From: Cyanobacteriota bacterium | Lineage (GTDB): Bacteria; Cyanobacteriota; Cyanobacteriia; CACIAM-69d | Direction: 5' to 3' | NCBI GenBank assembly: GCA_022402445.1 | Contig: JAKRSF010000006.1 | Span: 1 to 64,000 of the forward strand | DNA length: 64,000 nt | Shown here: positions 30,873 to 54,968 of the stretch, one piece after another | Layout: every line of letters starts with the position of its first letter | Numbering within the stretch: position 1 is the stretch's first letter | Notes under the pieces: generated by a model | What the model saw: the letters and a program-made list of their open reading frames with translations, nothing else | What the model was told of the DNA's origin: nothing | The model's database searches: none | Translations under genes and position numbers: made by a program

Positions 30873-31265
30873 GGGGCGGGAGGCAACCGATGGTGTCCAT
30901 GCCCCCTCCTGAAGTGATGCGATCGATAACTCTCCCTAATCTCCATTCCCCTTCCCATCCATTCGGCCAACGGATCCCACCCATCCAGGGGATTGATCAA
31001 TGGCATGAATGGGCGTCATGGCTGCGCGATCGCGGCATCAAGCACCCTTGATCCTAGAGATTTCGGGTTTGCTGTGGTCGAAAAAGGCCGCGATCGCCAC
31101 CCATATGGCCGCAGGAACATTAAATAAAAAAACTAAAAGAAAAACTTATCTGTCAGATTGAACATTGCGTTTCAACTCCGGGCCAGGTTACGAAAAAATC
31201 CCAGCACTTCAGGATAAACTGAGTCCCGTAGAGGTTCGAGGCCCAGTCGGCCCTTACTGATACAA
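30873..31265. other. sbtA upstream regulatory region
   Basis: No gene is supported here. An A-rich block at about 31115-31150 is followed by the inverted repeat TTGAA-N8-TTCAA (31158-31175), of the size seen for LysR-type regulators such as CmpR or NdhR/CcmR. Neither consensus matches fully. The region joins directly to the structured leader listed next. Confidence 0.4.
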
Positions 31266-31384
31266 GGCACTGGGGGACCGTAGCCCCCTTCGGAACCGCC
31301 CAGGGATCGATCCGTCATTCCCGGCGATTCCGCTAACCAAGTCCCGCGCAAGTACAGTGCCCCCAGGGCAGTCTCTTGCCCTGG
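31266..31384 (+). promoter_or_regulatory. structured sbtA leader, possible riboswitch or attenuator
   Basis: Competing pairings are visible. GGCACTG (31266-31272) can pair with CAGTGCC (31355-31361), and CTGGGGG (31270-31276) with CCCCCAG (31360-31366). Alternatively CCAGGGCA (31363-31370) pairs with TGCCCTGG (31377-31384). The last hairpin is followed after about 10 bases by a T-rich stretch. GGGGGACC (31272-31279) and CCGCTAACC (31330-31338) recall pieces of the c-di-AMP (ydaO) riboswitch, but the full consensus is not met by eye. Confidence 0.4.
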
Positions 31385-31451
31385 CCGACCTCAATTTTTC
31401 TCACTTTTCATAGTTATTGCTCCCCGTCAGGGGAAGCGGAGGGAGGTGTCC

Positions 31452-32516
31452 GTGGATTTCTTGACCCTTTTCTTAAAGGACTTTGTTGGCCAGTTGCAAT
31501 CGCCGACCTTGGGTTTTCTCATCGGTGGGATGGTCATTGCTGCCCTGGGTAGCGAATTGGTGATTCCAGAGGCGATTTGCACCATCATCGTCTTCATGCT
31601 GTTGACCAAAATCGGTCTAACCGGTGGGATTGCAATTCGTAATTCCAACCTGACCGAGATGGTTTTGCCCATCGTCTTTGCGGCCTGTGTAGGGATTTTG
31701 GTGGTCTTTATCGCGCGTTTTACATTGGCTAAATTGCCAAAGGTCAAAACCGTTGATGCGATCGCAACGGGCGGTTTGTTTGGGGCAGTCAGCGGCTCCA
31801 CCATGGCCGCAGCCTTGACCCTGCTGGAGGAACAAAACATTCAATACGAAGCATGGGCGGGCGCACTTTATCCATTCATGGATATCCCGGCGCTGGTCAC
31901 GGCAATTGTTGTGGCGAATATTTACCTCAACAAGAAAAAGCGCAGTGCCGCTGCCCTTTCGCAAGAGCCCCCCAGCACCCGTCAGGAATATCGCGATCAG
32001 CAGCAGGGTAATAGCAAGGTCAAAATCTGGCCGATCGTCGAGGAAAGCCTGCGCGGGCCTGCCCTGTCCGCCATGCTGCTCGGTCTGGCCCTGGGGATTC
32101 TCACCAAGCCGGAAAGCGTCTATGAAAACTTCTTCGATCCGGCTTTCCGGGGATTGCTTTCAATCCTAATGCTGGTGATGGGGATGGAGGCTTGGTCGCG
32201 GATTGGTGAACTGCGCAAGGTTGCCCAATGGTACGTTGTTTACAGTGTGGTGGCTCCGTTCTTGCATGGGTTGATTGCCTTTGGTCTGGGCATGATTGCT
32301 CACTACACGATGAACTTCAGCATGGGCGGCGTGGTTATTTTGGCGGTCATTGCGTCCTCTAGCTCGGACATTTCGGGTCCGCCCACGTTGCGGGCTGGCA
32401 TTCCATCCGCTAACCCTTCCGCGTATATTGGTGCTTCCACGGCCGTCGGTACGCCGGTCGCGATCGGCCTGTGCATTCCGTTCTTTATTGGGCTGGCCCA
32501 GGCAATTGGTGGCTAA
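31452..32516 (+). CDS. sbtA: sodium-dependent bicarbonate transporter SbtA
   Basis: A 354-residue plasma-membrane Na+/HCO3- symporter of the CO2-concentrating mechanism. It matches the family end to end: QSPTLGFLIGGMVIAALGS, RNSNLTEMVLP, TGGLFGAVSGSTMAAALTLL, then SSSDISGPPTLRAGIPSANP. The start is GTG 31452 (MDFLTLFLKDF), which aligns with other SbtA N-termini and sits 5-6 bases after GGAGG; the GTG at 31446 would touch the ribosome site. The cytoplasmic loop near residues 165-195 is shorter than in Synechocystis. sbtB follows downstream. Low-carbon induction is expected. Confidence 0.96.
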   Translation: MDFLTLFLKDFVGQLQSPTLGFLIGGMVIAALGSELVIPEAICTIIVFMLLTKIGLTGGIAIRNSNLTEMVLPIVFAACVGILVVFIARFTLAKLPKVKTVDAIATGGLFGAVSGSTMAAALTLLEEQNIQYEAWAGALYPFMDIPALVTAIVVANIYLNKKKRSAAALSQEPPSTRQEYRDQQQGNSKVKIWPIVEESLRGPALSAMLLGLALGILTKPESVYENFFDPAFRGLLSILMLVMGMEAWSRIGELRKVAQWYVVYSVVAPFLHGLIAFGLGMIAHYTMNFSMGGVVILAVIASSSSDISGPPTLRAGIPSANPSAYIGASTAVGTPVAIGLCIPFFIGLAQAIGG

Positions 32517-32593: not shown

Positions 32594-32932
<339 letters not shown>

Positions 32933-54178: not shown

Positions 54179-54691
54179 CTAAACCGATCGCGCGATCGCG
54201 GCGGGCTCCAGGGGGGGAATTTTCGCCAACAGGCCCCCCTTCAACGGTTCCGGCCGCTCCGCCCAGGGCAACTGGCCATCCGGGCGATCGCAATACCGCT
54301 GGGCGCAGGTCAGCACCGCCGCGATCGCACCTTCTAGGGCATCACCCGCCGACGCATCAACGCCGCCAAAGAGATAATTCGCCTTACCCGGCCCTGCAAA
54401 CGCCACCGCGCAATGGTGACTGCACGCGGACATGCAACTGACCGGCTGCACCTCGATGCGATCCGCGATCGCCGACGCGGCCACCGCCTCCTTTAGATGA
54501 TCGTAGAGTCGCTCGCCGCCACTGGTACCCACCCGCTTCCCCTGCTCCCAGGTGCCATTGCAGGTGGTGCAAACAAACAAAACATGGCGCGATTCCGGGG
54601 CCGCAGGGCTGGAACTGGGCGCACTGGCCGACGCGATCGGCGATCCCGATGGGCGCTCCGACACGGAAATGGACGAACGGGAAGGGGCCAT
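54179..54691 (-). CDS. DUF1636 metal-binding protein
   Basis: A 170-residue soluble protein with a Ser/Pro-rich start and a thioredoxin-like [2Fe-2S]-ferredoxin-type fold. Cysteines lie in FVCTTCNGTW, VSCMSACSHHC and LTCAQRYC. DUF1636 proteins occur in cobalamin-related gene sets and probably handle cobalt or carry a cluster. ATG 54691 has GCGAGGT upstream. It is the first gene behind the cobalamin riboswitch. Its precise function is not known. Confidence 0.8.
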   Translation of the reverse strand: MAPSRSSISVSERPSGSPIASASAPSSSPAAPESRHVLFVCTTCNGTWEQGKRVGTSGGERLYDHLKEAVAASAIADRIEVQPVSCMSACSHHCAVAFAGPGKANYLFGGVDASAGDALEGAIAAVLTCAQRYCDRPDGQLPWAERPEPLKGGLLAKIPPLEPAAIARSV

Positions 54692-54728
54692 CTGTACCTC
54701 GCAGAAGTGGCGCAAAGGACATGGGGAC

Positions 54729-54871
54729 GATCACCGGCGGGCATTCTGACTGGGGCGGCGCGATCGCGCGATCGCGGTTTTCACCCATCACAGCTGCGGG
54801 ACAGTGCCGGACTTTCACCGGACTTTCCCCCTTACCTCCGGGGGCTGTTCCCCCCCAGAACCGGACGATGC
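54729..54871 (-). promoter_or_regulatory. cobalamin (B12) riboswitch
   Basis: On the minus strand the conserved B12-element parts occur in order: GTCCGGTGAAAGTCCGGCAC, CTGTCCCGCAGCTGTGATGG and, near the 3' end, AGTCAGAATGCCCGCCGG. These match the consensus boxes GGTGxAAxTCC, CTGxCCCGCA and the P1-proximal end. It stops 37 bases before the DUF1636 ATG, so it probably acts by hiding the ribosome site when adenosylcobalamin binds. Two HIP1 octamers lie in a variable arm. Confidence 0.93.
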
Positions 54872-54968
54872 AAGCTCGACAATACCATGTCTCTTTGGCC
54901 GCCCTAACGGATCGCCCTGGTCGATCGCCCCGGCCCCGGTGGACCCATTCGATGCGATCGCCTTGGCC

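Follow-up and report, generated by a model that had tools for sequence, protein, structure and literature searches.

Does the leader of sbtA in this cyanobacterium act as an RNA switch, and is c-di-AMP the signal that it reads? The original prediction placed two mutually exclusive hairpins ahead of the gene and likened parts of the sequence to the ydaO riboswitch. In our analysis of the window (the whole 64,000-nt stretch of DNA), the leader is a regulatory-looking RNA, and the exact switch and its link to c-di-AMP are not supported. The result worth following is a structured leader that bicarbonate-uptake genes have in common and that Rfam 15 does not contain.

The window organism is a cyanobacterium related to Limnothrix, its nearest named relative in a comparison of SbtA being Limnothrix sp. 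CACIAM 69d (92%). The locus is laid out as follows:

31156–31239 (+), promoter-proximal block common to the sbtA upstream regions of other cyanobacteria, with a putative promoter role
31440–31446 (+), Shine-Dalgarno (SD) sequence AGGGAGG, aligned with AAGGAGG...GTGGATTT in some 80 sbtA genes
31452–32516 (+), sbtA, Na+-dependent bicarbonate transporter (Pfam Sbt_1, 300 bits)
32600–32932 (+), sbtB, PII-like regulator (Pfam P-II, E = 1.7e-16), presumed to be SbtB from its position

The probable sbtA start codon is GTG 31452 rather than the mechanical ORF start at 31446, since about 80 sbtA genes have a CDS opening with (G/A)TGGATTT after AAGGAGG. Elsewhere in the window, a cobalamin riboswitch (51.4 bits) lies at 54719–54880 (−), upstream of a 178-aa ORF at 54179–54715 (−).

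All strings named in the original prediction are present, namely CTGGGGG (31270–31276), CCCCCAG (31360–31366), CCAGGGCA (31363–31370), TGCCCTGG (31377–31384), GGGGGACC (31272–31279) and CCGCTAACC (31330–31338). Two elements dominate the predicted fold around them:

31363–31384 (+), hairpin Pd, CCAGGGCA gtctct TGCCCTGG (GUAGGGGUGA...UCACCCUUAC in relatives), pair probabilities 0.85–1.00 in the window
31266–31361 (+), long-range stem GGCACTG (31266–31272) with CAGTGCC (31355–31361), in the MFE structure with probabilities of 0.73–0.94

The 8-bp hairpin CCAGGGCA/TGCCCTGG is thus real and stable, and a perfect 8-bp hairpin arose in 3.7% of dinucleotide shuffles of 31226–31445. It had been described as lying just upstream of the ribosome site, a position that belongs instead to GCTCCCC/GGGGAAGC (31419–31437). 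The proposed alternative pairing, CTGGGGG with CCCCCAG, fared worse: forcing it costs 9.4 kcal/mol (−79.5 vs −88.9), its probability in the ensemble is 0.00, and the leaders of the nearest relatives do not conserve its arms. A distant 7-bp complement is ordinary on its own, at least one being found in 57% of shuffles of the same region; the overlapping, “mutually exclusive” arrangement occurred in 0.3% of shuffles, yet in 6 of 290 tiles of the window. The MFE partner of the 5′ arm is CAGTGCC, in a stem that makes no contact with the hairpin and is compatible with it; this stem is specific to the window and lacks comparative support. As a whole, the 201-nt window leader folds better than its shuffles (z = −2.24; 4/200).

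To place the leader among its relatives, sbtA leaders were gathered from 80 genomes, which have in common a 3′ half with a hairpin adjoining the SD. Two covariance models were built, neither including a window sequence: R1 (upstream half, 14 leaders) covers helices Pb and Pc and an outer stem, and R2 (downstream half, 30 leaders) covers Pd, P3, P4 and the SD. R2 matched 103 of 390 cyanobacterial genomes (59 of 160 genera) and R1 matched 78 (45 genera). The best 30 R2 loci were all upstream of sbtA, 27 directly and three (L137, L147, L151) separated from it by about 200–590 nt, and a further 70 R2-positive genomes all had sbtA, mostly starting right behind the match. For R1, 68 of the 70 loci fetched had sbtA downstream. 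Two leader copies instead lie directly 5′ of full-length cmpA, in locus L229 (1389–1500; R2 50 bits), where the encoded protein matches CmpA structure 2i48 with E = 3.4e-230 against 2.7e-131 for NrtA, and in L257 (G387:C97:5174–5282, −), with an 89% identical CmpA. No Rfam 15 family matched the window leader or the related leaders scanned, and in the open-access literature we found no description of a conserved structured sbtA leader. In six loci (L005, L006, L040, L042, L053, L073) sbtA has a different, unrelated leader with a ribosome-binding site (RBS) like AAGGAGGAATTACA, hence possession of the conserved leader is not a general requirement for sbtA.

Several loci showed rearranged leaders. 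A decayed cmpA-like N-terminal fragment lies between leader and sbtA in L161, L163 and, less clearly, in L169 and L183; the sbtA RBS differs in these mosaic loci, and by eye L163 also carries a psbA-like fragment. Apparent bicA coding fragments (MAITNLIRFNNLRGDIFGG, TPTLISEPTGPMTV) were likewise seen by eye in the sbtA leaders of L014, L028, L047, L067, L071 and similar loci. In L137/L050 (G098:C74), tandem R2 leader copies about 530 nt apart stand upstream of a single sbtA, and orphan upstream leader halves, with no sbtA or cmpA detected downstream, were found in L206 (G188:C2) and L222 (G384:C72).

The order of elements in the leader is promoter-like block, P0, Pa, Pb, Pc, Pd, P3, P4, SD and start. 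Besides Pd, the following helices were recognised in the window:

31244–31259 (+), hairpin P0, CAGT/ACTG (31244–31247 with 31256–31259), identified by eye; ATAGA/TCTAT in relatives
31264–31290 (+), hairpin Pa in reduced form, AAGG (31264–31267) with CCTT (31287–31290), or GGGGG/CCCCC inside, from the local fold
31291–31332 (+), hairpin Pb, CGGAAC CGCC CAGGGA ... TCCCGGCGATTCCG, from the local fold, with CCGCTAACC in its 3′ side
31419–31437 (+), hairpin P4, GC-T-CCCC GTCA GGGG-A-(A)-GC, adjoining the SD, as aligned by R2

Five helices (Pa, Pb, Pd, P3 and P4) covary across the family. Alignments A5 (87 distinct leaders) and A6 were made to the models, so that their pair counts lean towards the modelled structure, whereas A7 is a plain MAFFT alignment of 50 leaders, window included, and gave the smallest covariation margin. 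In A5, 85.0% of cells were paired and 18 of 20 pairs showed double changes, with 71 double-change cells vs 23.2 in shuffles (0/500); the values were 88.5%, 15 of 21 and 36 vs 13.0 (0/500) for A6, and 82.2%, 14 of 19 and 31 vs 18.3 (0/500) for A7, shuffle tests in which relatedness alone can exceed the shuffles. Shifting the 3′ partners by 1–3 columns lowered the paired fraction from 82–88% to 36–57%.

Among the individual helices, Pa (GGAAGGUG...CACCUUCC in relatives) had double changes in all 8 outer pairs in A7, where the covariation score of Pa and Pb together was reached by 0 of 500 shuffles, and pairing is better between its own arms than after swapping (p = 0.007). Pb, which is UUCGGAGA/UCUCUGAA in the best members, was about 90% paired with double changes (A7/A6), and the window keeps most of its pairs with quite different bases. 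Double changes were seen in 9 of 10 pairs of Pd in both A5 and A6, and the position of this hairpin is kept in relatives; comparison of related leaders, which the original prediction had proposed, thus revealed helices that are conserved and covarying. P4 (CUCCUC GUCA GAGGAG in relatives) was paired in 91.6% of A5 cells, with double changes in 5 of 6 pairs. The best members carry P3 as AACU/AGUU and Pc as CAGGU/ACCUG. In the P0 stretch, some stem of at least 4 bp was present in 46 of 50 leaders, the scan choosing another stem for the window. The outer stem CCCUG:UAGGG, in which the left arm of Pd pairs with upstream sequence, was paired in 90–91% of cells with changes that are mostly one-sided; its competition with Pd is consistent with a switch, not proof of one. 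Of the switch-like overlap first suggested, what stands is that the left arm of Pd can pair upstream in the family, though not with the bases that had been named.

The window itself is a distant member. R2 matched it once in 64 kb, at 31352–31451 (+) directly 5′ of sbtA, across Pd-P3-P4-SD (27.3 bits, E = 0.0019), a weak match whose E-value would be about 0.1 genome-wide. R1 gave no match in the window, the best score being 4.3 bits with filters off, and Pc, not discernible in the window leader, has apparently been lost. In a blastn search with the window leader, the block at 31156–31239 matched genomes G235 (E = 1.3e-4), G280 and G375, other matches being mostly noise, and the distance from this block to the R2 match is 110–111 nt in those three genomes and 113 nt in the window. 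A −10-like ATAAACT lies at 31214–31220 (ATAGACT in relatives), while a sigma-70 consensus scan found no promoter. In the full alignment, the window is co-linear with family members from the promoter block to the SD. The R2 match, the spacing of the promoter block and the co-linear alignment show the window leader to be homologous to the family, albeit diverged. We consider it likely that about 31222–31451 is a GC-rich and diverged representative of a cyanobacterial bicarbonate-uptake leader RNA that acts after transcription start, on translation initiation.

Such an RNA probably determines the amount of transporter translated. No terminator-like sites that would point to transcription attenuation were found in the window leader (n = 0), and together with the placement of P4 against the SD this makes control of translation initiation the simplest reading. 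P4 would fix the surroundings of the SD, and a distal anti-SD sequence may assist it:

31286–31443 (+), candidate anti-SD pairing CCCUUCG (31286–31292) with CGGAGGG (31437–31443), duplex −14.6 kcal/mol

While held by its own left arm, the right arm of Pa would leave the SD free, and by covering the SD it would block it; upstream pairing of the left arm of Pd may provide a second overlap. Across 48 leaders, the pairing of the Pa right arm with the SD averaged −8.8 vs −6.9 (sd 0.3) for permuted arms (0/300). We treat this pairing as a candidate, as own arms fit their own SDs no better than swapped arms do (p = 0.23), and its probability in the window MFE ensemble is 0.00. The arrangement is reminiscent of SD-occluding leaders such as translational riboswitches, ribosomal-protein leaders and RNA thermometers, sharing with them a structured 5′ UTR directly before one operon, a hairpin adjoining the SD, a possible anti-SD and the lack of a terminator-like site, but it differs from them in having no known ligand, protein, temperature signal or Rfam match.

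One candidate for the signal is the small RNA Yfr1, which is reported to target sbtA in the passages of PMC11782454 and PMC6202907 that cite Nakamura et al. 2007; a yfr1 mutant is described there as having raised sbtA mRNA and growing poorly at high CO2. A trans-acting sRNA would be the first candidate signal on account of this reported targeting, with a metabolite or plain folding kinetics as alternatives. Locating Yfr1 by its 11-nt motif and flanking hairpins, we found an intact gene in the genome of the window, with ACUCCUCACAC at G000:C7:266810–266820 (+) (L265), two hairpins around the motif and a U-tail. Yfr1 may pair with the leader and lower sbtA expression at high CO2, with Pd and P4 gating its access; we regard this as a tentative possibility, well short of an even chance. 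The proposed sites are the left arm of Pd (AGGGGUGAA) or P4 and the SD (GAGGAG/AAGGAGG). The best duplex family-wide falls at the left arm of Pd (mean −14.2 kcal/mol) and is equalled by permuted Yfr1 segments in 3% (A6) or 9% (A5) of cases. In the window, however, the best duplex reaches −10.2 kcal/mol, 81% of shuffled leaders are as good or better, and pairing with ACUCCUCACAC above chance was not found; the motif is also similar to an anti-SD and matches many RBSs. The reported regulation and the leader thus agree in gene, in post-transcriptional action and in a possible pairing site inside the family leader, and differ in that the window has not retained this site.

Alternatively, the window leader may have no special function and be a decayed homologue kept as an untranslated spacer, which would fit its low model scores and missing Pc, as well as the patchiness of the family, whose leaders are often rebuilt with bicA, cmpA or psbA fragments. 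We judge this unlikely, given that Pb, Pd and P4 are retained in the window with altered bases and that the leader folds better than its shuffles.

A more ambitious form of the translational model would make the leader the sensor of a new riboswitch-like class reading inorganic-carbon status, the right arm of Pa alternating between its left-arm partner and the SD and so switching translation of SbtA and CmpA. Candidate ligands include 2-phosphoglycolate, 2-oxoglutarate, an adenine nucleotide or bicarbonate itself; we see this as a long shot.

LysR-type regulators bind inverted repeats, and the repeats of the leader could be DNA operators (NdhR/CcmR, CmpR, RbcR or cyAbrB2 sites) rather than RNA structure. 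sbtA is indeed controlled by NdhR, RbcR and cyAbrB2 (PMC13249358), and a conserved block, ATTGCGTTTCAA (31164–31175), lies upstream of the presumed −10 element. As an account of the leader this is very unlikely, since its arms change sequence yet keep pairing, unlike a sequence-specific operator, and P4 is in a transcribed position between leader and SD. Operators probably do explain the upstream block: control by NdhR/CcmR, RbcR and cyAbrB2 (PMC3401165, PMC13249358) concerns the same gene and the block may be their site, but it acts on promoter DNA and leaves the covarying helices downstream unexplained.

We give almost no credence to the idea that a ydaO-type c-di-AMP riboswitch controls sbtA. 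In its favour, two short strings resemble ydaO elements, as the original prediction noted, SbtB was stated in the original prediction to bind c-di-AMP, and riboswitches of this type (RF00379) are common in cyanobacteria (197 of 390 genomes) and present in the genome of the window. Against it, a search of 31050–31500 with relaxed filters gave no RF00379 match up to E = 10, so the window leader does not reach the gathering score (38 bits); scans of 20 related sbtA loci at gathering, and of two complete related leaders at E ≤ 5, were equally negative. The permissive Rfam scan did give PreQ1 and CRISPR-repeat matches, which scored far below gathering and were dismissed. As a positive control, RF00379 detected a 66.6-bit copy elsewhere in the same genome (G000:C13:241545–241694; L001 1501–1650, − strand), the only one found there, hence the search works and the sbtA leader is not a c-di-AMP riboswitch. 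This true copy lies upstream of an ArsB/DASS-like transporter ORF, in agreement with Synechocystis, where the verified c-di-AMP riboswitch target is slr0753, a putative chloride efflux transporter (PMC10117731). Both look-alike strings belong to helices unrelated to ydaO, GGGGGACC aligning with the Pa loop, which reads CGGGACAGC in relatives, and CCGCTAACC with the 3′ strand of Pb (CTCTGAACACC in relatives), and helices in ydaO order together with both ligand-site segments were not found in the window leader. What the leader has in common with ydaO-yuaA is those two strings and its putative nature as a cyanobacterial cis-regulatory RNA; it gives no match to the model. On present evidence, c-di-AMP is not the signal of the sbtA leader. 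A leader peptide, in which a short ORF would couple its own translation to that of sbtA, can be set aside just as firmly: although an ATG at UCUAUG opens ORFs of mostly 33–48 codons in 23 of 50 upstream leader halves, this is under half of the leaders, the window has none, and frame and length switch (33 vs 43–48 codons) through single-base length differences.

Described control of sbtA operates on the promoter, through NdhR, RbcR and cyAbrB2, and on the protein, through SbtB. With a covarying leader before sbtA in about one third of the sampled cyanobacterial genera, and before cmpA in two genomes, regulation of the CO2-concentrating mechanism would gain a further layer at the RNA level. The leader occurs in relatives of strains amenable to laboratory work (Nostoc, Anabaena, Microcystis), and it would offer a concrete place for studying the action of Yfr1 on sbtA.
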